Assembly (NCBI RefSeq): GCF_009668025.1
Contig: NZ_WJXZ01000014.1
Coordinates: forward strand, 1,074,448-1,138,447
Direction of reading: 5' to 3'
Origin: Larkinella terrae
Lineage (GTDB): Bacteria; Bacteroidota; Bacteroidia; Cytophagales; Spirosomataceae
DNA: 64,000 nt
In this document: piece after piece, positions 6,222-25,702 of the stretch
Layout: every line of letters begins with the position of its first letter
Position numbering within the stretch: the first letter of the stretch is position 1
The notes under the pieces: generated by a model
Database searches by the model: none
The model's input: only the letters and a program-made list of their open reading frames with translations
What the model was told of the DNA's origin: nothing
Position numbers and translations under genes: made by a program

Positions 6222-6806
6222 TTACGATGATGGATTGCGGAAGATCAAGTCAAATTTTAGAGTCATGACATCCTCGACTGGCACCATCATTAAAGAGGGT
6301 CTGTCAATTAGAAAGTCGGAAAGGCTGACCGGAAAGGATCCTTCTATTCGAAATTCATTTCCGGTCTCCAGTAATTTTGCCTGACAGGTAACCGGACGCG
6401 TCACCCCGTGGAAAGTCAACTTGCCGACAATTACCAGGGCTCCCCCGGTATTTATATGAACCTCCTGCGTGGTAAAAGTAACCAGGGGGTATTTCAGTCC
6501 TTCCAATACCTCAATGGCGTGTGAATCACGGTTCGCGTTCTTCGAGTCGAAACTGGCTATTTTGATTGCCAGGGCACCGCTTTCGATTTGACGCGTATCG
6601 GGGTTGTAAATGAACGCGCCGGATACCTCGTGGCTGACTCCATCCCAGGTATGCATGGGATGCTTCATGGTGTAGGTGACGGTAGAATGTGTTTTGTCAA
6701 CCACCATTTTCAGGCGGTTCGGCAGGAATGCAAACGGCATTGACTGCGTCAACAACCAGTTCGAAAGAAGCAATAGGTGAAGCATACCGTTAAAATTTAA
6801 TGGCAA
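6222..6806 (-). CDS. YceI-family periplasmic protein
   Basis: The 194-residue product has an N-terminal hydrophobic stretch (LHLLLLSNWLLT) acting as signal peptide. The YceI lipocalin-like fold follows: VDKTHSTVTYTMKHPMHTWDGVS, GALAIKIASFDSKNANRD, LKYPLVTFTT, GKLTFHGVTRPV and FRIEGSFPVSLSDF. YceI proteins bind long polyprenoid or quinone-like lipids in a hydrophobic barrel. It is the last gene of a five-gene operon. The ATG at 6806 overlaps the preceding gene by 17 bases, while an alternative ATG at 6785 would begin just after that gene's stop codon. In this context it may carry or shield a quinone-type lipid; that role is inferred. Confidence 0.88.
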   Translation of the reverse strand: MPLNFNGMLHLLLLSNWLLTQSMPFAFLPNRLKMVVDKTHSTVTYTMKHPMHTWDGVSHEVSGAFIYNPDTRQIESGALAIKIASFDSKNANRDSHAIEVLEGLKYPLVTFTTQEVHINTGGALVIVGKLTFHGVTRPVTCQAKLLETGNEFRIEGSFPVSLSDFLIDRPSLMMVPVEDVMTLKFDLIFRNPSS

Positions 6807-7467
6807 TTATAGAGGCAGCAAAAGCGCCAAAGGTAGTGTACGCGGCCGCGCGGTGATAGGGTTTCAGTTCGGGATGAGAATCGATCATACCCGATAGAAC
6901 GTTCGTCGTAATCATACCCGCAATATGCAGAACGGCCAGGTACTTATGGAGTTTGATAGAGCTGAATCCGGATCGCTCCAATACCATTTTAGGAGGAGCA
7001 GCGAGCGACAAAAGGGCCGTTGTGGTATAAGTGATATTGACGCAGGTAGCAAGGGTACTGTGTGTATTGAGCAGTTTGCCAAAGCTTTCTCCTTTTGCGT
7101 CGTATAATTTCGCTCCAACGATTCCCTGCGCAATGAAGCCAGCGAGCGTAACAAAACCCATCACCTGATGACTCACCAGCATCGTACGGCGAATCTTTAG
7201 TTCGTGCGCCCGCCCCTCTGGCGTCAAGGGGGCAACTTTCAGGTTGCGTAAAACTCCACGAGGTCCCCAGAAAAACCGCTGGGTGAAAATCATATGAGGA
7301 GGTAGCAACGCCGGGGTTTCTTTGGAATCAACCAGCTCATTCAATAAGCTATCGGCACTAGTGGCGGAGGTTGTTAGGGAGTCCGGTGTGGAGGTAGCAA
7401 CCTGAGCATACCCTGATCCGCTCATTCCAAGCAGGAACACTCCGATCAAAACAAGTGATCTTTTCAT
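6790..7467 (-). CDS. Secreted/membrane protein with four His-bearing helices (cytochrome b561-like topology)
   Basis: The 225-residue product has a signal peptide (MKRSLVLIGVFLLGMSGSGYAQ), a polar segment to about residue 95, then four hydrophobic helices at about 98-117, 134-156, 172-195 and 203-223. Histidines lie at or near the start of each helix: His100, His136, His174 with His181, and His205. That layout suggests bis-haem ligation as in cytochrome b561-like proteins, but I do not recognise the exact family. It sits between Rieske and YceI genes, 16 bases after the Rieske stop codon. A membrane electron carrier is the most economical reading; haem binding is inference. Confidence 0.7.
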   Translation of the reverse strand: MKRSLVLIGVFLLGMSGSGYAQVATSTPDSLTTSATSADSLLNELVDSKETPALLPPHMIFTQRFFWGPRGVLRNLKVAPLTPEGRAHELKIRRTMLVSHQVMGFVTLAGFIAQGIVGAKLYDAKGESFGKLLNTHSTLATCVNITYTTTALLSLAAPPKMVLERSGFSSIKLHKYLAVLHIAGMITTNVLSGMIDSHPELKPYHRAAAYTTFGAFAASIIAIKF

Positions 7468-7483
7468 TTTGAGTCCGTTGCAG

Positions 7484-7918
7484 TTAAGAAATCGTCAGGG
7501 TATTGCCCGCCTGGGTAACCGTATAAACGGTCAGGCCATTTCGTCCTTCCGAATTTAAGCCTTTGCCGGTCAGGTCATAACGGGCGCCATGCTCAGGACA
7601 GTAAAACTCGTCGTTTCGTAATTGAACCTTCCTTTGGCCTTCGTGGCTGCAAACGACAGTGACGGCTACATACCCCCTGGAAGTGTTGGCAACCACTACA
7701 TTGTTGGTAACAATATACCCACCTTGTTTCAGTAAGCCGGCGTTGGCGGGGGCAGTTAAATCGACCGTCACCGTGCCACTAAGCGGAGCTGGGCTAACCC
7801 CGTTATTTTTACTACAGGCAGTCAGCGACTGTCCGGCGCAGTATACCGCCAGCAGGGCGGCTCCTTTGATGCCCATTGCTTTCAAAAATTCGTTACGGGA
7901 AATGGCATTCTGATTCAT
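7484..7918 (-). CDS. Rieske [2Fe-2S] protein, membrane-anchored
   Basis: A small 144-residue Rieske protein. The cluster ligands are C90-x-H92 (CSHEG) and C107-x-x-H110 (CPEHG), with GARYD following as in the family. The N-terminus (RNEFLKAMGIKGAALLAVYCAG) resembles the leader of exported Rieske proteins, and LTAC35 could serve as a lipobox, so the domain faces the periplasm tethered to a membrane. It lacks the long transmembrane anchor and context of the cytochrome bc1/b6f Rieske and is closer to small arsenite-oxidase-like or ferredoxin-like Rieske proteins. It lies 17 bases after the barrel protein gene and 16 before the four-helix protein gene, pointing to shared electron transfer. Confidence 0.9.
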   Translation of the reverse strand: MNQNAISRNEFLKAMGIKGAALLAVYCAGQSLTACSKNNGVSPAPLSGTVTVDLTAPANAGLLKQGGYIVTNNVVVANTSRGYVAVTVVCSHEGQRKVQLRNDEFYCPEHGARYDLTGKGLNSEGRNGLTVYTVTQAGNTLTIS

Positions 7919-7935
7919 AGGAAATTACAGATTGA

Positions 7936-9222
7936 TTAGAAATGGTAAAGCAAAGCGATCCGCCCGCCAAGAGCCGGGAAAGACAGGTAGTAAGGACGAT
8001 AAGCTGATTGGAAATACCCTTCTGCCTGAAGGAACAACTGGTTGGAAACGGGATAGCTAACGCCCGCATTGACTTGATACACAGCCGTTAGTTCAGGATA
8101 ACCATTGCCACGTACCTTCATTTCGGGCTGACCGCCGGTTTGATGATACTCGATTTGATAGGATAAGCCTTTTTGAACACCGGCCTCTGCTCCGATAAAT
8201 GGTTGAAGGCGACCGGCCCAGGGATAGAATCTACCGCCAACGGTCATCTCGAGCGTATGCCAGTTATTAACTTCAACCCGGTTTATGAACGGTTGTGGGT
8301 CCGGCTGACCTGGAAAGTGGAGCATCGACCGGTGGTGATCTCCATCGGGCTCGAAGTCATAAGCCGTATTCTGGTATAAAGCGGTTGCGATCAGACTCCA
8401 TTTTGAATGAAGCGCCCACTCCGCACGAAGGCCAAAACCATTGCCCTGTTGCCTTTCTAACTGGCGCGATACCGGCAATCGCTTATCACCTACCAACCCT
8501 AACATAAAGCTTCGGAGCGAAATCGATCGACGGGCAGGCTCGACGGCCGAAACCGCAGTTGTTTTTCGGGAATGAGCCGGTTGTTGGACCGGTTTATCTT
8601 CTTCCGGGCTGATGCCCGTTTTTCCAGGTTCCTGCAAACTATCAGCAGCGAGCGAGATCACCGGCCCTGAGTCAATACCTCCGGTTTCTGTACCCGTTTG
8701 ATGATCCAAAGAAGCTCCGTCGGTTCCATTCCCTTTGACCAGCTTTCGTGCATCCGGCGAGTTAACGTCGGGAGACCGGTTTTCGGGAAGTCGACTAGTT
8801 CCTTTTTTGGATGGGTTTCTATTCCATTCTTTTTCAACGGAATAGGACAAGGAATGATCGTCGAATCGGGGCCGCTGCCACAGGGCATTCTTGCCTGCAT
8901 GGCCAACCGGGTCCTGCTGGCGCTCAGTTGGAAGGTAAACCGTTCGGTACACGGTATCTACCCGGATGAGCTTACGTTCTGCCACGATTCGTTTATTCTC
9001 TTGAAGTTGATCCAGTTGTTGGCGGGTTTCCTGAAGTTGGTAGTAGATTACCCCCGTAATACCCAACAGCAATCCGCTAACCACTGGCAGAAGCCACGTG
9101 AGCCAACGGAGTTTCCGTTGTAGTTCATAACGCTCCAGCCGTTCTTCTACTTTAGACCACTCACGATCGGAATAGTCGGGTAGTTGCCGGGCAAACTGAT
9201 CATCGAAATCAAAGTCGTTCAT
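7936..9222 (-). CDS. Anti-sigma-like, single-TM protein with C-terminal beta-barrel domain
   Basis: The 428-residue product starts with about 38 cytoplasmic residues rich in charge (DDQFARQLPDYSDREWSKVEERLE), then one transmembrane helix at about 39-60 and a short coiled coil (QLQETRQQLDQLQE). A long low-complexity Ser/Pro/Gly region runs to about 240. The last 190 residues have alternating amphipathic strands and end in YHF, as outer-membrane barrels do. No signal peptide is present. Its position 27 bases downstream of an ECF sigma gene suggests the short N-terminus is an anti-sigma domain; this is inference. It might connect an envelope signal to sigma release, with the barrel folded in the outer membrane or kept as a periplasmic beta domain. 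Confidence 0.7.
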   Translation of the reverse strand: MNDFDFDDQFARQLPDYSDREWSKVEERLERYELQRKLRWLTWLLPVVSGLLLGITGVIYYQLQETRQQLDQLQENKRIVAERKLIRVDTVYRTVYLPTERQQDPVGHAGKNALWQRPRFDDHSLSYSVEKEWNRNPSKKGTSRLPENRSPDVNSPDARKLVKGNGTDGASLDHQTGTETGGIDSGPVISLAADSLQEPGKTGISPEEDKPVQQPAHSRKTTAVSAVEPARRSISLRSFMLGLVGDKRLPVSRQLERQQGNGFGLRAEWALHSKWSLIATALYQNTAYDFEPDGDHHRSMLHFPGQPDPQPFINRVEVNNWHTLEMTVGGRFYPWAGRLQPFIGAEAGVQKGLSYQIEYHQTGGQPEMKVRGNGYPELTAVYQVNAGVSYPVSNQLFLQAEGYFQSAYRPYYLSFPALGGRIALLYHF

Positions 9223-9249
9223 GGGTAAATGTCCTGCATGGAAAGCGGT

Positions 9250-9777
9250 TTAAAAATCACAGAGTAACTCCTGAAGCTTCTGACGGGCACGCGATAAATT
9301 GGACAGGGAGGTGCCGACGGAAATACCCAGCATTTGGGCAATCTCTTTATGATCGTATCCTTCAATGACGTAGAGATTAAAAACCGTCCGGTAGGCAGGC
9401 GGCAAGTGCTGGATAAGCCGACTGACTTCCTCCGTCGTGAATCGCCCAAACAAATCCATCTCAACTTCTACCTGTTCAGCTTCGGCTAACTCAGTCAGGA
9501 TCAGGGGTGGTTGCTGGCGCAATTGATTCAGGGCCGTGTTGATCAGAATCTTTTTGAACCAGTTCACAAACGGCCATTCGGGATTGAAGGTGTCGATTTG
9601 CCGGAACACTTTCACAAATCCATCGTTGAGGACTTCCCGGGCAATTTCAACATCGGCAATGTACCGCAGGCATACGGAAAGTCCGTAGCGATAAAACGCC
9701 TGATACAATTCCCGTTGTGCCTGCCGATCCTGTTTACGACAACGACTCAAAATCTCTACTAAGCGGTGAGTATCCAT
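9250..9777 (-). CDS. ECF-family RNA polymerase sigma factor
   Basis: A 175-residue sigma-70 family protein with only regions 2 and 4. Region 2 spans LYQAFYRYGLSVCLRYIAD to NDGFVKVFRQIDTF and WPFVNWFKKILINTALN. Region 4 carries LPPAYRTVFNLYVIEGYDHKEIA with the helix-turn-helix MLGISVGTSLSNLSRARQKL. It heads a five-gene minus-strand operon with gaps of about 27, 17 and 16 bases followed by an overlap, so it probably controls its own operon, with the downstream membrane protein as regulator. Promoters recognised by this sigma cannot be read from one window. Confidence 0.93.
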   Translation of the reverse strand: MDTHRLVEILSRCRKQDRQAQRELYQAFYRYGLSVCLRYIADVEIAREVLNDGFVKVFRQIDTFNPEWPFVNWFKKILINTALNQLRQQPPLILTELAEAEQVEVEMDLFGRFTTEEVSRLIQHLPPAYRTVFNLYVIEGYDHKEIAQMLGISVGTSLSNLSRARQKLQELLCDF

Positions 9778-10213: not shown

Positions 10214-10600
10214 ATGAAGGCAATTGTTGCTTTTTTGCTGACGCTCCAAGTACTGGGAAGTAGTTTAGTCCCGGGCTTTGGTATCTCCCAGTCGGTCAGG
10301 CTGGTCGATCTGGTTCAGCATTTTCAGCAACACCGGCAAACCGCCCCCGATTTGAGTTTTCTGGATTTTATGCTCATGCATTATGGAGCCAACTCCGAGC
10401 ACCAGAAGCATCCAAATCATAGCCACCATAATCTTCCAGCGGTCGGCCATGCTACTCCTGCATTTACGGCTCCTTTCATTGTTTTGCTGTCATTAGCTGC
10501 CCAAGCGGTCTTATTGCCGGCGAAAACAGCCTGTTTTCGTTACGCTAATCATTACTCATTCCTCTGTGTATTTTCGCTGATTAATCCGCCCCGACCCTAG
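10214..10600 (+). CDS. Small exported His-rich protein upstream of metal efflux genes
   Basis: The 128-residue product begins with a signal-peptide-like segment (MKAIVAFLLTLQVLGSSLVPG). A His-dense stretch follows, with His56, 63, 66, 69, 71, 72 and 79, including HPNHSHHN, and then a hydrophobic segment at about 82-105. I do not recognise a named family. Small His-rich membrane or periplasmic proteins are frequent just upstream of CzcA-type efflux genes in Bacteroidota and are thought to bind or sense the metal. Here it precedes the CzcA gene by 217 bases on the same strand. Metal binding is inferred from composition and position. Confidence 0.7.
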   Translation: MKAIVAFLLTLQVLGSSLVPGFGISQSVRLVDLVQHFQQHRQTAPDLSFLDFMLMHYGANSEHQKHPNHSHHNLPAVGHATPAFTAPFIVLLSLAAQAVLLPAKTACFRYANHYSFLCVFSLINPPRP

Positions 10601-10817
10601 TTGGGGTGGGCTGGTTGGCCGAATTGTGCCCTTACGGGTAGCAATACATCTGTCTTCTTTTCCGTTTTCTGGTGCTTTTGCCGGTTGTTTTTGGTTAATC
10701 GGCTGCATTACGAACCCGTTCTCCTGTGCATACGGTCTTCAGTGGAAAACCGCCGTATTGAGTGCGCACGCTTGTCATTGCCAATCATCCTAAGTTGACT
10801 TTTCGTTCCTCGCTACG

Positions 10818-13800
10818 ATGCTGAACGCTATCATTCATTTTTCAATCCGTCATAAATTAATCATTGGCCTGTTCACCCTGGCGTTGATCGGATGGGGCCT
10901 CTGGTCAGCCTCTCAGTTGCCCATCGACGCAGTGCCCGACATCACCAACAATCAGGTGCAGGTCATCACCAGCAGTCCATCGCTGGCCGCTGAAGACATC
11001 GAACGGCTGGTTACCCTTCCCATCGAAGTGGGCTTGTCCAACATTCCGGGTCTGACCGAGATCCGCTCCTTCTCCCGCTTTGGCCTTTCGATTATAACGG
11101 TTGTGTTTACGGATGCAACGGATGTGTACTGGGCCCGTCAGCAGATCAGCGAGCGGTTACAGACGATAACGGGGCAGATTCCACCCCATGTGGGCACACC
11201 CGTTATGGCGCCGGTAACGACGGGTCTGGGTGAAATTTTCCAGTATACCGTCGTTCCCAAAAAAGGCTTTGAAAACCGCTATTCGCTGACCGACCTGCGC
11301 ACCCTCCAGGACTGGACCATCAGGCGGGCGCTTTTGGGCACGCCCGGGGTTGCTGACGTAAGCGGTTTTGGCGGCTTGCTGAAGCAGTACGAAATAGCCG
11401 TTGATCCAGACCGGCTACGGAGCTTTGGAATCACCATTACTGACCTCCTGACGGCGCTTCAGCAAAATAACCAGAACACGGGTGGGGCTTACATCGATAA
11501 AAAACCGAATGCCTTCTTTATCCGCTCAGACGGCCTGATTCGATCTCCAGACGACATTGCCGACATTGTTATCCGCCTGAATGACCAGGCGTTACCCGTG
11601 CGTGTTCGTGACGTAGCACAGGTGCAAATCGGTTCAGCTGTGCGGTACGGAGCCGTTACGCGCAACGGTCAGGGGGAAACGGTGGGTGCCGTGGTGATGA
11701 TGATTAAAGGCGAAAACTCATCGGCTGTCATTAAGCGGGTTAAGGAAAAGATTGCCCGGATTCAGCAGATGTTGCCTCCGGGCGTGCAGATTGTTCCATT
11801 TCTGGATCGTACTAAAATGGTCAACAGTGCCATCGGCACGGTGGAACGGAATCTGCTGGAAGGAGCTACGATAGTCATCGTCGTACTGGTCCTGCTGCTG
11901 GGAAATTTTCGAGCGGGTTTTGTCGTGGCTTCCGTCATTCCGCTGGCATTGCTGTTTGCCATCTCAATGATGAACCTTTTCGATGTGTCCGGAAACCTGA
12001 TGAGCCTGGGAGCCATCGATTTCGGACTGATTGTCGACGGAGCCGTCATCATCGTCGAAGCGACGCTGCACCACATCACCCTGCGCAATCTGGATAAAAC
12101 GCTCACCCAGGCTGAAATGGACGAAGAAGTGTACCAATCAGCCGGCCGCATTCGTTCCTCAGCGGCTTTCGGGGAAATCATTATTCTGATTGTCTATTTG
12201 CCGATTTTAGCCTTGTCGGGCATCGAAGGAAAAATGTTTCGACCGATGGCGCTAACGGTCGCTTTTGCCATCCTGGGTGCCTTTATTCTCTCGCTCACCT
12301 ACGTGCCGATGGTTTCGGCGCTTCTGCTGAATAAAAAAATCCAGCATAAAGTCTCGTTTTCTGACCGGATTGTAAAGCGGATTCATCGTTTTTACGAACC
12401 GGTTCTACTGCGTGCGCTTCAGCACCGGCTATTGATTCTTTCGGGGGCAGTGGCGCTATTGATCGGAGCAATTTTTATGTTTTCCCGGATGGGAGGTGAA
12501 TTTATTCCCCAACTTGATGAAGGCGATTTTGCCGTCGATACCCGGACCCTTACGGGTAGCTCGCTCTCCGAAACCGTCGACGCTACCCTGAAAGCCCAGC
12601 GTATTCTGCTCCGCCAGTTTCCGGAAGTTGAGCAGGTGGTGGGCAAAATCGGTTCCGGCGAAATCCCGACCGATCCGATGCCCATCGAAGCCTCGGATCT
12701 GATGGTTATTCTCAAGCCGAAAGACGATTGGACATCAGCTACCACGCGTGACGAACTGGCCGGGAAAATGGCCGAAGCACTGGCGGTGATTCCGGGCGTC
12801 ACCTTCGGCTTTCAGCAGCCCGTTCAAATGCGGTTCAACGAGCTGATGACCGGAGCCCGTCAGGATGTGGCTTTAAAAATTTACGGCGACGATTTGAATC
12901 AGCTCACGCAATTGGCCGATCGGGTAGGTGGCCTGATCCGAACCATTGCGGGCGCGAAGGACTTGTACATCGAACAGGTGGGCGGGCTGTCGCAAATTCT
13001 GATCCGGCTGGATCGGGCGCAGATTGCCAAGTTTGGGCTGAACATAGCCGATATAAACCGGGTCATCAATACCGCCTTCGCCGGACAATCTGCGGGAGTG
13101 GTATTTGAAGGCGAAAAACGATTCGATCTGGTCGTTCGGTTGGCCGCCACTAAACGCCAGAGTATCCAGGACATCCGGAATGTGTACGTAGCTGTCCCGG
13201 CCGGTGTGGGCAGGCCTTCCCAACAAATTCCGTTAGGTCAGATTGCTCAGGTAAGTGTTCAGGAGACGCCTAACCAGATTCAGCGGGACGATACCCACCG
13301 GCGGATTACGCTCGGTTTCAATGTGCGGGGACGCGACGTAGAAAGTATCGTCGCGGAGTTGCAGCAGAAAGTCGGTCAGCGCATCAAATTTCCAGCCGGT
13401 TATTCGATTGCCTACGGGGGGCAATTTCAGAATCTGGTCGAAGCGAAAACACGCCTAAGCATGGCTGTCCCCATCGCCCTCGGTTTAATATTCGCTTTGC
13501 TATTCTTTACCTTCAACTCTGTTCGGCAAAGTCTTCTCATTTTCATGGCCATTCCGATGGCCGCTATCGGGGGCATAGCCGCATTACTGATCCGCGACAT
13601 GCCGTTCAGTATATCGGCCGGTGTGGGCTTTATTGCCCTCTTTGGCGTCTCCGTTCTCAATGGCATCGTGCTGATCGCGGAGTTTAACCGGCTTCGGTAC
13701 GAAGAGGGCTTAACCAATTTGACCGAAATTATCCGGCAGGGAACTGAAATCCGCCTTCGCCCCGTCATCATGACGGCTCTGGTCGCTTCGTTTGGGTTCA

Positions 13801-15224
13801 TCCCGATGGCCATTTCGAACTCGGCGGGTGCCGAAGTACAGAAACCGCTGGCGACCGTTGTGATTGGAGGACTACTATCGGCCACGGTACTGACCCTTCT
13901 TATTCTTCCCATTCTGTATTCCTTAACAGAACGAAAAGCAGTGGAAAAAGAGGCCAAAACCGCCCGTAAACCGGGATTGACCCCATTGGTGAAAATCGTC
14001 AGTGGATTGGTGTTTGTATCACTGGCCGCAGGCAGTTGGGGACAGACCCCTCAACTGGTTACGTTACAGCAGGCGCTTCAGCAGGCAGCGAACCAAAATG
14101 GTCAGTTACGAACGGCCGCTCTGCGGGTAAGCCAGGAACAGGCTTTACGGCAGACCGCCTACGACGCCGGTCGGTTGTCGGCCACGCTCATGCTGGGCCA
14201 ATACAACAGCCGACGATTTGATAATAACCTGGCCGTTACGCAGACCATTCCGAATCCGGCGCTGATGCGTCGGCTGGCGCAACTGAATGATCAGACAGTC
14301 AGCGCCCGTCAAGCAGAGGTAAGCGTTACACAAAATGACGTTCAGTACGGTGTAAAGTCGGTGTATTATGAGCTAAACCATCTCTACCAGAAACGCAACC
14401 TTTTCCAGCAACAGGATACGATACTTGCCGAGTTTGTGAAGGCGGCCAATTTGCGAATTAAAACCGGTGAAACCGGCGGCCTCGAAAAAGCGACTGCCGA
14501 AAGCCAATTGGCCGATCAACGGGTACGGCTAGCCCAAAATGACGCGGCCATAACGGCCAGTCGGAGCCAACTGCAGACGTTGCTCAACAGCCGGCAGCCG
14601 GTTGATGTCCCTGTTGATTCACTACCGAAACTGACAATCCGGACCGTTCTGGATAGTACCTCACTGGCCCGCAATCCCGGGCTGCGGCTATTGCAACAGC
14701 AAATACAGGTTGCCCGGCAGAGTCGGATGGTGGAACAGGCTCGATTGAAACCGGATTTTCTGGTAGGCTTATTCAGTCAGACCCTGATCGGAAACCAGTT
14801 GATTGATGGTCAGGAGTTGTATTTCGGACCTGGTTACCGGTTTAATGGAGGACAGATCGGTATAACCCTTCCCATGCTGAGGCAACCCCAGAAAGCCCGA
14901 ATCCAGGCGGCCCGCGTTGGCGAACAACTGGTTCAGACGGAGCTTCAAAATCAACAATTTACGCTCGATCAGCAACTGAAACAGGCGGTTCAGCAGTATG
15001 AAAAGTACCAACAGGTACTGGCTTACTATGAAATGAATGGTCTCCCCCAGGCGGAATTCATCCGAACCATCGCCCGACGTGGTTTTAACAGTGGCGACAT
15101 TGGTTACGTAGAATTTTCGCTGGCGCTGCAGCAAGCCCTGACAATCCGGTCCAATTACCTGGATCTGCTCCATCAATACAATCAATCGGTTCTCTACATC
15201 AACTACTTACTGGGTAATCCCTGA
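10818..15224 (+). CDS. czcA: CzcA-type heavy-metal RND efflux pump fused to a TolC-like outer-membrane protein
   Basis: This 1468-residue protein joins two normally separate pump parts. Residues 1 to about 1045 are a complete HME-type RND transporter. The proton-relay signature DFGLIVDGAVIIVEA (about 401-415) is of the divalent-cation CzcA type rather than the Cu/Ag CusA type. Residues about 1075-1468 are a TolC/CzcC-like outer-membrane factor with the long helical repeats of that family (VTLQQALQQAANQNG, then the second half after QQQIQVARQSR). Between them lies a basic then hydrophobic stretch (KIVSGLVFVSLAAGSWGQ) that looks like a retained signal peptide. The adaptor gene follows after 8 bases. 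Zn, Co or Cd export is the likely job. Confidence 0.93.
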   Translation: MLNAIIHFSIRHKLIIGLFTLALIGWGLWSASQLPIDAVPDITNNQVQVITSSPSLAAEDIERLVTLPIEVGLSNIPGLTEIRSFSRFGLSIITVVFTDATDVYWARQQISERLQTITGQIPPHVGTPVMAPVTTGLGEIFQYTVVPKKGFENRYSLTDLRTLQDWTIRRALLGTPGVADVSGFGGLLKQYEIAVDPDRLRSFGITITDLLTALQQNNQNTGGAYIDKKPNAFFIRSDGLIRSPDDIADIVIRLNDQALPVRVRDVAQVQIGSAVRYGAVTRNGQGETVGAVVMMIKGENSSAVIKRVKEKIARIQQMLPPGVQIVPFLDRTKMVNSAIGTVERNLLEGATIVIVVLVLLLGNFRAGFVVASVIPLALLFAISMMNLFDVSGNLMSLGAIDFGLIVDGAVIIVEATLHHITLRNLDKTLTQAEMDEEVYQSAGRIRSSAAFGEIIILIVYLPILALSGIEGKMFRPMALTVAFAILGAFILSLTYVPMVSALLLNKKIQHKVSFSDRIVKRIHRFYEPVLLRALQHRLLILSGAVALLIGAIFMFSRMGGEFIPQLDEGDFAVDTRTLTGSSLSETVDATLKAQRILLRQFPEVEQVVGKIGSGEIPTDPMPIEASDLMVILKPKDDWTSATTRDELAGKMAEALAVIPGVTFGFQQPVQMRFNELMTGARQDVALKIYGDDLNQLTQLADRVGGLIRTIAGAKDLYIEQVGGLSQILIRLDRAQIAKFGLNIADINRVINTAFAGQSAGVVFEGEKRFDLVVRLAATKRQSIQDIRNVYVAVPAGVGRPSQQIPLGQIAQVSVQETPNQIQRDDTHRRITLGFNVRGRDVESIVAELQQKVGQRIKFPAGYSIAYGGQFQNLVEAKTRLSMAVPIALGLIFALLFFTFNSVRQSLLIFMAIPMAAIGGIAALLIRDMPFSISAGVGFIALFGVSVLNGIVLIAEFNRLRYEEGLTNLTEIIRQGTEIRLRPVIMTALVASFGFIPMAISNSAGAEVQKPLATVVIGGLLSATVLTLLILPILYSLTERKAVEKEAKTARKPGLTPLVKIVSGLVFVSLAAGSWGQTPQLVTLQQALQQAANQNGQLRTAALRVSQEQALRQTAYDAGRLSATLMLGQYNSRRFDNNLAVTQTIPNPALMRRLAQLNDQTVSARQAEVSVTQNDVQYGVKSVYYELNHLYQKRNLFQQQDTILAEFVKAANLRIKTGETGGLEKATAESQLADQRVRLAQNDAAITASRSQLQTLLNSRQPVDVPVDSLPKLTIRTVLDSTSLARNPGLRLLQQQIQVARQSRMVEQARLKPDFLVGLFSQTLIGNQLIDGQELYFGPGYRFNGGQIGITLPMLRQPQKARIQAARVGEQLVQTELQNQQFTLDQQLKQAVQQYEKYQQVLAYYEMNGLPQAEFIRTIARRGFNSGDIGYVEFSLALQQALTIRSNYLDLLHQYNQSVLYINYLLGNP

Positions 15225-15232
15225 ATAGATCC

Positions 15233-16435
15233 ATGACTTACACCATGTCCAGATACAACCTGCTGATACTTCTGAGCGCTTTCGTGTTCTTAAGTTGCCA
15301 TTCATCCAATGATCAGAAAGATCAATCCAGGAGTCCGGAAGTTATCCCGACAAAGGTCGATTCGGTCCCAACAGGGCCCTTCCGGGTTTCGCTTACGCAG
15401 GCGCAATACGAGGTAGCGGCTATTCAGCTGGGTCAACCTACGTTACGCACCCTTAACCAGACGCTGAAAGCCAACGGAACGATTGATGTACCCGCATCCA
15501 ATCTCGTTTCCGTCGCCGTACCTTTTGGCGGTTATATCCGAACCATTGACCTGGAACCGGGCATGAAAATCCGAAAGGGGCAACCCCTGGCCCAGTTGGA
15601 AAATCCTGAATTCATTCAACTTCAGCAGGATTATCTGGATACAAAAGCCAAACTGGAATTTGCCGATCTTGAATATAATCGGCAACAGGAATTGAGCCGG
15701 GATAACGTCAATGCACTGAAGTTATTCCAGCAGGTACGATCTACACGGCAAAGTTTACAGGCTCAACTAGCGGGACTGGCTCAGCGACTGGCCATCATCC
15801 ATATTGATCCGGAGAAACTCAGTCCCAATCAACTGACGCGCCTGGTAACGGTTCCTTCGCCGGTTTCGGGCTTTGTTACCAGTGTGCCGATTAATAAGGG
15901 TCGGTTCCTCAACCCGTCCGACATACTGGTCGAGATCACGAATGTCGATCACCTGCATGTGCGGCTCAGCATTTTTGAAAAAGACATCAGCCGGGTGCAT
16001 ACCGGGCAGGTGGTTCACTTCGGTTTGGGGGATGAAGCATCTTTGGTGCACCAGGGCAAAATTTTCCTGATTGGAAAATCCATAGCGGCCGATCGAACGC
16101 TTGCGGTTCTGGCTCACCCGGATGGCTACAGTGCCGACCTGATTCCGGGCGGATACGTCTCGGCCCTGGTCGATGTGAAAACGCAACCCCTGCCCACCTT
16201 ACCCGAAACGGCCGTCGTTAGCTATAAAGGCAAGTCGCTGGTGTTTGTACTGGAGAAAAAGCAGGGCCATCCGGCTGCTTATCAATTTCGGCAGGTAGAG
16301 ATAAAAACGGGTATTCAGGAAAATGGTTATGTAGCCGTTTCCATTCCCCCGAACGTCAACCCGGCCGTAACGCCGATTGTCCGGAAGGGCGCCTACAGCT
16401 TACTGGCCAAACTAAACAATAACGAAGAAGAATAA
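15233..16435 (+). CDS. czcB: CzcB/CusB-family periplasmic adaptor lipoprotein of the efflux pump
   Basis: A 400-residue membrane-fusion protein. The lipobox LSC22 gives a lipidated N-terminus. Barrel-sandwich halves are visible around VSVAVPFGGYIRTIDLEPGMKIRKGQPLAQLENPE and VPSPVSGFVTSVPINKGRFL, separated by a helical hairpin (QDYLDTKAKLEFADLEYNRQQEL). The beta-barrel and membrane-proximal domains follow. It bridges the RND pump and the outer-membrane channel, which here are one polypeptide. ATGs at 15233 and 15245 are both possible starts. Gaps of 8 bases upstream and 7 downstream mark a tight operon. Confidence 0.93.
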   Translation: MTYTMSRYNLLILLSAFVFLSCHSSNDQKDQSRSPEVIPTKVDSVPTGPFRVSLTQAQYEVAAIQLGQPTLRTLNQTLKANGTIDVPASNLVSVAVPFGGYIRTIDLEPGMKIRKGQPLAQLENPEFIQLQQDYLDTKAKLEFADLEYNRQQELSRDNVNALKLFQQVRSTRQSLQAQLAGLAQRLAIIHIDPEKLSPNQLTRLVTVPSPVSGFVTSVPINKGRFLNPSDILVEITNVDHLHVRLSIFEKDISRVHTGQVVHFGLGDEASLVHQGKIFLIGKSIAADRTLAVLAHPDGYSADLIPGGYVSALVDVKTQPLPTLPETAVVSYKGKSLVFVLEKKQGHPAAYQFRQVEIKTGIQENGYVAVSIPPNVNPAVTPIVRKGAYSLLAKLNNNEEE

Positions 16436-16442
16436 GAATAAG

Positions 16443-17153
16443 ATGGCACATACCCCACATGGTCAACTCCACATTGAAAAGCATCTGCGGAGTTCCGCAT
16501 TTATTTCAGACATCGTCATTGGCATGTCGGACGGATTAACGGTCCCCTTTGCGCTGGCAGCGGGTTTAAGCGGTGCCGTATCGAGTTCTTCCCTGATTGT
16601 TACCGCAGGTATTGCCGAGATTGTCGCCGGGGCTATTGCGATGGGATTAGGAGGTTACCTGGCTGGTCAGACCGAGGCCGATCATTATGAATCGGAACGG
16701 CGACGCGAAATTAGAGAAGTAGAAACGGTTCCCGAACGTGAAAAAGAAGAAGTACGCGACGTTTTTGCCAGCATGGGCCTTCCTGCCGATCTGCAAACCG
16801 CCATTGCCGATGAACTGGCTAAGGATAAAACGAATTGGGTGGATTTCATGATGAAATATGAACTGGGGCTTGATGAGCCGGATCCAAAGCGGGCTACCAA
16901 GAGCGCCTTAACGATTGGACTTTCCTACGTAGCTGGCGGGTTAATACCTTTATGTCCCTATTTTATCCTGAGCCATCCCCACATTGCCTTGGGTTATTCC
17001 TGTGCCTTGACGTTGTTGTGCCTGTTCATTTTTGGTTATTTCAAAAGTAAAGTAACGGGACAACCCCCGACCAGGGGTGCCATTAAGGTAACCTTGATTG
17101 GAGCGTTGGCGGCAGCGGCCGCTTTTGGTGTCGCCCGTTTCCTTAATGCCTGA
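16443..17153 (+). CDS. VIT1/CCC1-family iron/manganese transporter
   Basis: The 236-residue protein shows the VIT family signature: helix 1 with SDIVIGMSDGLTVPFALAAGLSGA, then GIAEIVAGAIAMGLGGYLAGQTEADHYESERRRE. A cytosolic Glu-rich metal-binding segment (REIREVETVPEREKEEV) follows, then three more helices. VIT/CCC1 proteins move Fe(II) or Mn(II) out of the cytosol in exchange for protons. As the last gene of the CzcA-CzcB operon, 7 bases after czcB, it adds a second, cytosol-facing metal export route. Substrate preference is not determinable from sequence alone. Confidence 0.92.
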   Translation: MAHTPHGQLHIEKHLRSSAFISDIVIGMSDGLTVPFALAAGLSGAVSSSSLIVTAGIAEIVAGAIAMGLGGYLAGQTEADHYESERRREIREVETVPEREKEEVRDVFASMGLPADLQTAIADELAKDKTNWVDFMMKYELGLDEPDPKRATKSALTIGLSYVAGGLIPLCPYFILSHPHIALGYSCALTLLCLFIFGYFKSKVTGQPPTRGAIKVTLIGALAAAAAFGVARFLNA

Positions 17154-24494: not shown

Positions 24495-25004
24495 TTATTT
24501 TCCTCCGCGCGGACCGGTGTAAACCGTCTCGCCATTGGGGCCTTTCTGGCTCGCATCGACGGACGCTTTGTAATCGGCAGGGGAGGCCTTGACCTCTTTC
24601 TCCGGTTTTTCAGCCTTTTCGGCTTTTTCCTTTTTCTCCGGCTTTTCTTTCTTCTCGGTTTTTTCGGCCTTTTCCGGTTTTTCGAGTTTTTCTGCTTTAT
24701 CTACTTTTTCTTTTTTCTCCTTCTTCTCTTTTTTCTCCGCTTTTTCCTCATCGGTCATGGCGGCTTTTTTAGCTTTCTTCTCAGCTTTGGCGGCTGCCTT
24801 TTGCTCGTCAGTCATCGCAGCTTTGGCGGCCTTTTTCTCGGCTTTCGCTTTTTTCTCTTCCTCAGTCAGCGGAGCTTTGTCTTTTTTCTTGTCCGATTTT
24901 TCCTTCTTCGTTTTTTCTTTCTTTTCCTTGGCGTCCTGCGCGAACGAGTCGAGTGTGAAAGTCAGACCCAGCAAGAGCAGCAGAATGGAGAGCGTCTTTT
25001 TCAT
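24495..25004 (-). CDS. Secreted Lys/Glu-rich protein with truncated GPRGGK motif
   Basis: A 169-residue exported protein (signal peptide MKKTLSILLLLLGLTFTLDSFAQ) whose middle is almost entirely Lys, Glu and Ala, including two AAMTDE[QE]KA repeats and many KEKxEK units. The C-terminus reads SQKGPNGETVYTGPRGGK, the start of the short motif known as the PBCV-type basic adaptor. Then a TAA interrupts the frame. After that stop the same frame continues with YITKAGNKRYLSSNK and ends in TGA at 24447, matching the complete end of the neighbouring paralogue. The stop therefore replaces a Tyr codon (TAC to TAA). Function is unknown; strong basicity suggests binding to an acidic polymer or surface. Confidence 0.75.
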   Translation of the reverse strand: MKKTLSILLLLLGLTFTLDSFAQDAKEKKEKTKKEKSDKKKDKAPLTEEEKKAKAEKKAAKAAMTDEQKAAAKAEKKAKKAAMTDEEKAEKKEKKEKKEKVDKAEKLEKPEKAEKTEKKEKPEKKEKAEKAEKPEKEVKASPADYKASVDASQKGPNGETVYTGPRGGK

Positions 25005-25183
25005 CTTTGGAAGCGTTATGGTGGTTAGTTGTCCTTCGGCCCAGGGTTTTGACCGAAAGAATTGGGTATTTGAAATTAATTGCTTGTCGAACGAAATTTA
25101 ATCCAATATTTCCGTCCGCCAAAATAGAAGAGGGTGCAAAATCAGATTAAATTTTGCACCCTCGGATTCATCGGCCCGCCGAC

Positions 25184-25702
25184 TTAGTTACTGCTCAAAT
25201 ACCGCTTGTTACCGGCTTTGGTAATGTAGTATTTTCCTCCGCGCGGACCCGAATAAACCGTTTCACCGGCGGGGCCTTTCTGGCTTTTGTCAACCGCGGC
25301 TTTGTAATCTTCCGGGACGGCTTTTACTTCTTTTTCAACTTTAGCGGTTTTGGTTTCTGATTTCGCGGTTTTGCTTTTGAACGTTCCATCCGCGTTCCGT
25401 TCGGCGGTAGCGGTTTTCGTTTCCGACTTCTCGGCTTTCTTAAAAGTACCATCCGCATTGCGGGCGACCGTAGCGGTTTTGGTCTCCGATTTTTCGGCTT
25501 TCTTGAAGGTACCGTCCGGGTTGCGGGCTGGTTGATCGGTTTTGGCTTCCTTCATGGCCGCCTTGTTGTCCGGATTATCGGCGGCTTTTTTTGCGGCTTT
25601 GGATTCTTTCTTCGCTATTTTAGCTTCCGAGGGCGTCTGTCCCGATACGCGAACAACCGTCAGCGTGAACAGAAAACAGAGAATAATGAGTGCGTTTTTC
25701 AT
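25184..25702 (-). CDS. Secreted repeat protein with C-terminal GPRGGKYYITKxGNKRYL motif
   Basis: A 172-residue exported protein (signal peptide ending near SGQ22). Residues 60-121 hold three 21-residue repeats beginning RNxDGTFK and rich in Lys, Ser and Thr. The C-terminus reads SQKGPAGETVYSGPRGGK and continues YYITKAGNKRYLSS. It resembles the PBCV-specific basic adaptor motif, first noted fused to many chlorovirus proteins and also found in bacteria. The gene upstream of asnS's hairpin encodes a paralogue with the same ending. Both are likely extracytoplasmic; the exact role is unknown. Confidence 0.75.
   Translation of the reverse strand: MKNALIILCFLFTLTVVRVSGQTPSEAKIAKKESKAAKKAADNPDNKAAMKEAKTDQPARNPDGTFKKAEKSETKTATVARNADGTFKKAEKSETKTATAERNADGTFKSKTAKSETKTAKVEKEVKAVPEDYKAAVDKSQKGPAGETVYSGPRGGKYYITKAGNKRYLSSN
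25340..25525 (-). repeat. Three tandem 63-bp coding repeats
   Basis: Within the secreted repeat protein, three consecutive units each encode about 21 residues starting RN(P/A)DGTFK and ending SETKTA(T/K). The DNA copies are close to identical, including the GTTTTCGTTTCCGACTTCTC-type stretch on the plus strand, which suggests recent duplication. Copy number may vary between strains. Confidence 0.7.

Follow-up and report, generated by a model that had tools for sequence, protein, structure and literature searches.

The five-gene operon at positions 6222-9777, on the minus strand, of a 64,000-nucleotide stretch of Larkinella terrae DNA (assembly GCF_009668025.1, contig NZ_WJXZ01000014.1; hereafter "the window") is best read as a Dma-controlled, Rieske-augmented relative of the LcoA-BcnA system. 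It carries, in this order, the genes for an extracytoplasmic function (ECF) sigma factor, a barrel protein, a Rieske [2Fe-2S] protein, a four-helix membrane protein and a YceI lipocalin. The last three form a triad that is inherited together and conserved far beyond this genome. The four-helix protein probably belongs, as a very divergent member, to the b561-type cytochromes, which is likely rather than proven. The barrel protein is a probable anti-sigma factor of Dma type, an assignment that is absent from an earlier description of these genes made from the letters of the window (hereafter "the original prediction").

Operon layout and domain assignment

Domains were assigned by profile scans against Pfam and NCBIfam with curated cut-offs. 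The sigma factor gene (9250..9777, minus strand as all five; 175 residues) showed Sigma70_r2, Sigma70_r4_2 and TIGR02937 above cut-off, with PF08281 scoring 66.9 bits (cut-off 25.7). It is followed by the barrel gene (7936..9222, 428 residues), the Rieske gene (7484..7918, 144 residues; PF00355 at 28.4 bits, cut-off 20.3, both ligand boxes present), the gene of the predicted b561-type four-helix protein (6790..7467, 225 residues) and the YceI gene (6222..6785; PF04264 at 82.3 bits, cut-off 23.7). Reading frame coordinates bear out the original prediction on five minus-strand genes with gaps of 27, 17 and 16 bases, and its sigma, Rieske and YceI identities all lie above the Pfam cut-offs. The single overlap that it listed depends on the YceI start: a TTG at 6806 (194 residues) overlaps the four-helix gene by 17 bases, whereas with the ATG at 6785 four bases separate the YceI gene from the four-helix stop and the product has 187 residues. 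The ATG appears to be the likelier start, since the 187-residue product opens with a signal-peptide-like stretch, as judged by eye.

Conservation and co-inheritance of the triad

Of 150 genomes from the window's family, 68 had a match to the four-helix family; a sample of 395 from the whole phylum gave 32, spread over 12 families. Two copies reside in the window's own genome, and the second (L076 3134-7250, G000:C4) belongs to another complete five-gene operon with its own sigma factor and a longer barrel protein. It should also be added that locus L033 (5929-7443) has a tandem pair of four-helix genes in one operon, in a record labelled Flavobacterium with proteins resembling those of Spirosomaceae, that L114 (1623-2342) holds an orphan copy, and that copies in L040 (4566-6620) and G068:C10:153550-154151 are frame-split or interrupted by an internal stop and apparently decaying.

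Neighbours were counted at loci up to L126, where 76 distinct four-helix genes encode 150 residues or more; these loci are mutually related and form part of the matches only (30 from the family search, 30 from the phylum search, 14 from another, plus further stretches). The operon arrangement is not due to chance, because a YceI gene lies within 1 kb and on the same strand of 75 of the 76 genes; a Rieske gene lies within 1.5 kb of 69. In a set of 70 genes, YceI was placed beside and downstream of the four-helix gene in every case and Rieske was present in 65, with the Rieske gene located after YceI in four of the 70 loci. Pairwise distances across 67 triads were correlated between the four-helix protein and YceI (r 0.89), the four-helix protein and Rieske (0.65), and YceI and Rieske (0.70), none of 2000 permutations reaching as high in any of the three, and shared species descent contributes to these values.

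YceI proteins are common, eight being encoded in the window's genome. In the YceI tree, 47 triad members fell on one side of a branch and 29 others, from the window's genome and 18 triad-bearing genomes, on the opposite side, with support of 96/86 and in 96% of 200 bootstrap trees. The rows were drawn from 74 triad YceI, of which those of the first 48 loci were thinned to one third; L192 and L202 gave no usable row, and one contributing search gave 30 loci among the matches listed. The tree carries a long-branch warning that includes N_L106 and N_L189, both adjoining the triad group. The window's YceI is 32% identical to that of E. coli over 146 aligned positions, and its best solved relative is 1y0g.

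The Rieske protein and its possible partners

The window's Rieske protein has the ligands C90-x-H and C107-x2-H, no disulfide cysteines and a lipobox-like C35. Simple regular expressions found the ligand pattern in all 67 distinct Rieske proteins of triad loci, a lipobox-like motif in 60 and an RRxFL motif in 15, while both disulfide cysteines were present in 13 and missing in 54. These features bear on two other explanations of the operon. The redox core of bc1 consists of a di-haem four-helix cytochrome b and a Rieske protein. The present operon could thus encode a miniature quinol:Rieske oxidoreductase, in which the four-helix protein, as a di-haem cytochrome, and Rieske oxidise quinol in a bc1-like way and YceI delivers or removes the quinone. 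The Rieske link in 69 of 76 loci agrees with it, as does the annotation of both solved Rieske relatives found as b6f subunits; however, the disulfide cysteines usual in bc1/b6f are missing in those 54 of 67 proteins, seven loci are devoid of Rieske and the operon has no cytochrome c gene, and we hold this explanation to be quite improbable.

Oxygenase ferredoxins, on the other hand, are cytoplasmic, disulfide-less Rieske proteins. This likeness would suit a lipid-modifying system, in which Rieske and the cytochrome supply electrons to an oxygenase or desaturase encoded elsewhere, whose substrate is a polyprenoid borne by YceI, but the triad's Rieske looks exported and no oxygenase was seen in the operon. 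Although YceI structures hold isoprenoids, as stated in PMC9113575, such a system is very unlikely.

The four-helix protein as a probable divergent cytochrome b561

The assignment of the four-helix protein relies on profile matches of its homologues, on histidine conservation and on hydropathy. Four hydrophobic segments follow a signal-like N-terminal one, and a stretch of ~70 residues precedes helix 1. In alignment A2, comprising 36 members, His100, His174, His181 and His205 are kept in all, and His136 in 31, with Lys in the other five. The numbering of these five residues in the original prediction was correct, and the conservation that its reading required held in full for four of them, His136 being the exception. 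Also invariant are Arg74, Arg86, Arg93, Trp67, Tyr147 and Pro158-159. Calculated with the His columns excluded, the conserved face of the respective helix is no more than 34 degrees from any of the five His, the moment of helix 4 being weak. The family therefore has the b561 core of four helices with a conserved His on each, His136 not being universal.

Ten homologues were scanned singly with PF03188 (cut-off 23 bits). Five matched at E<=1, three of them above cut-off (L062, 25.4; L071, 25.8; L074, 24.3 bits), and five gave no match; L094 scored 21.9 bits, under the cut-off, and L095 had no match. Single scans of the 36 members against Pfam at E<=1 returned PF01292 (17/36), PF03188 (14/36), DUF4079 (8/36) and Ferric_reduct (6/36) as the commonest families, all of which we take to be haem-b or b561-like membrane families. 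Furthermore, a reverse search of 198 genomes with PF03188 gave 15 matches (E<=0.01), ten of which were loci of the four-helix family; only two exceeded the cut-off, both from this family, and 14 control genomes yielded zero matches. Where the PF03188 alignment was located on the sequence, in L094 and in five of the genome matches (L127-L130, L134), it spans the counterparts of His100 and His136. The "haem-bearing" character claimed in the original prediction thus gains the partial matches of homologues to cytochrome b561 models, whereas the haem itself is still a prediction.

Several results weigh against this assignment. The window's protein matched no Pfam family above cut-off and no cytochrome at all in the Pfam and NCBIfam scans; 22 of the 36 homologues had no PF03188 match even at E<=1, and no cytochrome was named for the family in the NCBIfam search. 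Sequence searches of the PDB found no solved structure matching it. The PF03188 matches are partial, the C-terminal half of b561 mostly aligning with helices 1-2, the first hairpin. Comparison by hhalign with E. coli YceJ and CybB was weak (E 0.05, probability 1%), and in this same weak alignment His136 and the Pro-Pro after it stand opposite a His and a Pro-Pro of the E. coli pair. Against the hydrogenase-type PF01292 set hhalign returned nothing, and kinship with that group was rejected on this nil comparison. As His136 is replaced by Lys in five members, a putative second haem site would not be universal; that loss and the extra invariant His181 are left unexplained by the haem-pair scheme. 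Finally, the Arg/Lys adjoining helix 1 (Arg93-Arg94) suggest, by the positive-inside rule and as judged by eye, that the N-side is cytoplasmic, which speaks against a signal peptide.

The comparison with CybB is relevant to another explanation, in which the cytochrome would take electrons from periplasmic superoxide, as CybB does, into quinone, with YceI storing or ferrying the quinone and Rieske serving as the exit to periplasmic acceptors. To our knowledge, Rieske proteins have no role in the known CybB reaction, and the profile comparison with CybB/YceJ is weak. The helix bundle is nevertheless of the same general kind as that of CybB, a superoxide:ubiquinone oxidoreductase according to PMC9113575, and three invariant His would lie on one side in the topology that we propose below. 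Such a superoxide or quinone shuttle is unlikely.

The sigma factor, the barrel protein and the promoter search

The order sigma, barrel, Rieske, four-helix and YceI recurs within the window's family. Among 48 four-helix genes with more than 3.5 kb of upstream sequence, 19 had a sigma gene on the same strand within 4 kb (both tandem copies of L033 included), four had a divergent one and 25 had none at the threshold, weaker sigma-like matches near L089, L090 and L126 being excluded from the count. All 23 sigma-bearing cases belong to the window's family f1 or to named Spirosomaceae, except L033, labelled Flavobacterium sp. A place for the sigma factor in an old module was therefore rejected, given the 25 genes without it and this narrow distribution. 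Accordingly, the neighbourhood in the original prediction is conserved far beyond this genome in its Rieske, four-helix and YceI part, whereas the sigma and barrel genes were seen only in the window's family and that single Flavobacterium-labelled record.

Hydropathy and composition divide the barrel protein, with approximate borders, into a cytoplasmic N-terminus (~1-40), one transmembrane helix (~41-61), a disordered tether (~62-238) and a C-terminal barrel (~240-428), where OMP_b-brl matched at 260-401 with 21.1 bits, below its cut-off of 28.7. Its homologues are poorly conserved, with 13-22% identity to the window's protein. In alignment A3, of 22 homologues, they have in common a short N-terminus, a C-terminal part aligning with the barrel and a long tether in which disorder-promoting residues abound. 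A hydrophobic segment was found within the first 85 residues of 21, the exception being L112, whose reading frame begins too early and whose segment is sub-threshold; at this crude threshold 16 of 22 had exactly one segment, five had extra ones and one had none. As described in PMC13088901, Dma anti-sigma factors have a cytoplasmic N-terminus, one transmembrane helix, a disordered tether and a C-terminal barrel, and their genes adjoin that of an ECF sigma factor of class ECF21. Because the layout observed here matches that one, the barrel gene, which also adjoins a sigma gene, probably encodes an anti-sigma factor, with its N-terminus presumably acting on the sigma factor.

A dyad search in 27 upstream regions returned mainly words of a conserved upstream coding gene, as judged by eye. 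One ECF-promoter-like word, GCAACC-N16-CGTA, occurred in six of the 27 (L041, L042, L076, L121, L123 and L125) against a shuffle mean of 0.04; the word was selected on these very regions, dinucleotides are not preserved in the shuffles, and the six include three close relatives. One copy lies 201 bases upstream and one overlaps the start. We treat this word as a lead towards a shared promoter. A shared sigma promoter was not upheld, since the dyad words were mostly coding and the best word lacked a convincing copy before the window's sigma gene.

Proposed function

We consider it an even call whether the operon serves the redox defence of the envelope in the following manner. The sigma factor would be held by an anti-sigma protein spanning the envelope, with its C-terminal barrel in the outer membrane. 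Damage to the envelope would release the sigma factor, which would then transcribe its own operon together with three effectors: a periplasmic Rieske lipoprotein, the four-helix b-type cytochrome and the YceI lipocalin with its isoprenoid lipid or quinone. Signal-like N-termini, as judged by eye, would place Rieske and YceI outside the inner membrane, and with them the start of the four-helix protein. Given that topology, Rieske and YceI would be faced by a periplasm-side cluster of His100, His174 and His181, with His136 and His205 paired on the cytoplasmic side. Electrons from the quinol of the membrane would reach the ligand of the lipocalin through the cytochrome and Rieske, and this ligand may then quench lipid peroxyl radicals or return quinol to the outer envelope. 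The likeliest job of the triad is to keep the quinone or polyprenoid bound by the lipocalin reduced for the quenching of lipid radicals, and in this way it may shield the envelope against oxidised lipids.

Further points count against this redox defence. Seven of the 76 loci have no Rieske recognised by profile (L043, L077, L078, L091, L093, L114 and L124), and L114 is without YceI too. Upstream of the window's sigma gene we found no convincing copy of GCAACC-N16-CGTA and no sigma-dependent promoter, the counts for the window being at chance level; of the "self-regulated" module in the original prediction, the probable anti-sigma gene is thus present, but not such a promoter. What the sequences themselves show is which genes are present, that the triad is inherited together, the ligand residues and the domain layout; we infer the haem, the membrane side, the electron direction, the substrate, the anti-sigma action and the driving of the operon by the sigma factor, and with these all functional claims.

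A broader and doubtful idea is that the triad represents an old bacterial quinol-handling device, minimal and bc1-like, in which a stand-alone Rieske, a di-haem four-helix cytochrome and a quinone lipocalin would carry reducing power from inner-membrane quinol to the outer membrane, and which one family would have placed under a dual-membrane sensor.

Genes adjoining the operon

Back to back with the operon, on the plus strand (10214..17153), is a divergent cluster, assigned by domain scans and not part of the operon. It comprises a His-rich protein of 128 residues (10214-10600; no Pfam match at E<=1e-5, and present beside some related triads at 55-59% identity), a reading frame of 1468 residues (10818-15224) in which a resistance-nodulation-division (RND) pump, ACR_tran, is fused to an outer-membrane efflux domain, OEP, as also in L037 and L115, a CusB-type adaptor and a VIT-family transporter. 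Some of these genes also accompany triads in L032, L035, L037, L040, L044 and L202, and on the Fibrella plasmid CP155472 Dps and catalase are found beside the triad as well. A sub-group of triads adjoins Dps, catalase, RND efflux or VIT genes, which agrees with the proposed redox defence; the majority of other long loci compared, including the second copy L076, have none of the window's neighbours within the flanks covered.

This neighbourhood is pertinent to a Dcytb-like role, with the cytochrome acting as a periplasm-side reductase of Cu(II) or Fe(III) together with the RND efflux and VIT genes. This copy has the pump, the CusB-type adaptor and VIT as neighbours, and several relatives have at least one of them, but most other long loci are without them, and we know of no metal reductase of which YceI or Rieske forms part. 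Some cytochromes b561 are Fe(III) reductases, as given in PMC9113575; metal reduction is still decidedly improbable here. Elsewhere in the window (24495-25702), two adjoining small Lys-rich proteins have a common C-terminal GETVY-GPRGGK motif.

Comparison with known systems

A search of open-access papers found no description of a Rieske-b561-YceI operon. The original prediction knew of no description of the combination, which stands for the whole within that search; its two halves are, however, on record, b561 with YceI in PMC9113575 and the ECF sigma factor with a dual-membrane anti-sigma barrel in PMC13088901. The present data carry the idea of b561-YceI defence over to another phylum, where the cytochrome is a different one and Rieske joins as a partner, and make an electron route to YceI-bound lipids in the periplasm testable. 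Moreover, a Dma-type anti-sigma factor gains a defined group of genes as its likely targets, and a so far unannotated membrane family ("hypothetical protein" in CP155472) gains a genomic context.

The closest characterised system is LcoA-BcnA(-PsrA) of Burkholderia cenocepacia, which detoxifies lipid peroxyl radicals, with yceJ-yceI as the counterpart in E. coli. According to PMC9113575, lcoA (cytochrome b561) and bcnA (YceI) occur in Proteobacteria as linked genes or as fusions, their mutants accumulate lipid peroxides, and its authors suggest that LcoA re-reduces the ubiquinone carried by BcnA. The window's operon is similar in having a predicted b561-type membrane gene directly upstream of a YceI gene of clear homology, an order also found in E. 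coli yceJ-yceI, where the gap is 3 bases. It differs in that its cytochrome family is at most very weakly related to YceJ/CybB, in the Rieske gene added in 69 of 76 loci and in the sigma/anti-sigma pair that heads the operon in the window's family.

With cytochromes b561 in general (PF03188; PF01292 and PF13301 more weakly), the four-helix family shares the four helices, the His on each and the hairpin similarity enclosing His100 and His136. In contrast, its signal-like N-terminus, the ~70-residue leader before helix 1 and the additional invariant His181 set it apart, and most members, the window's included, are below cut-off or unmatched. The Rieske protein resembles those of bc1/b6f in its exported appearance and its C-x-H and C-x2-H ligands, but not in the absence of the disulfide cysteines (54/67), the lipobox-like motif (60/67) and the b561-type partner. 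The barrel protein agrees with Dma in its four-part layout and adjoining ECF sigma gene, a likeness by layout with Dma1-3 as described in PMC13088901; unlike the genes described there for dma2, those downstream here encode redox proteins.

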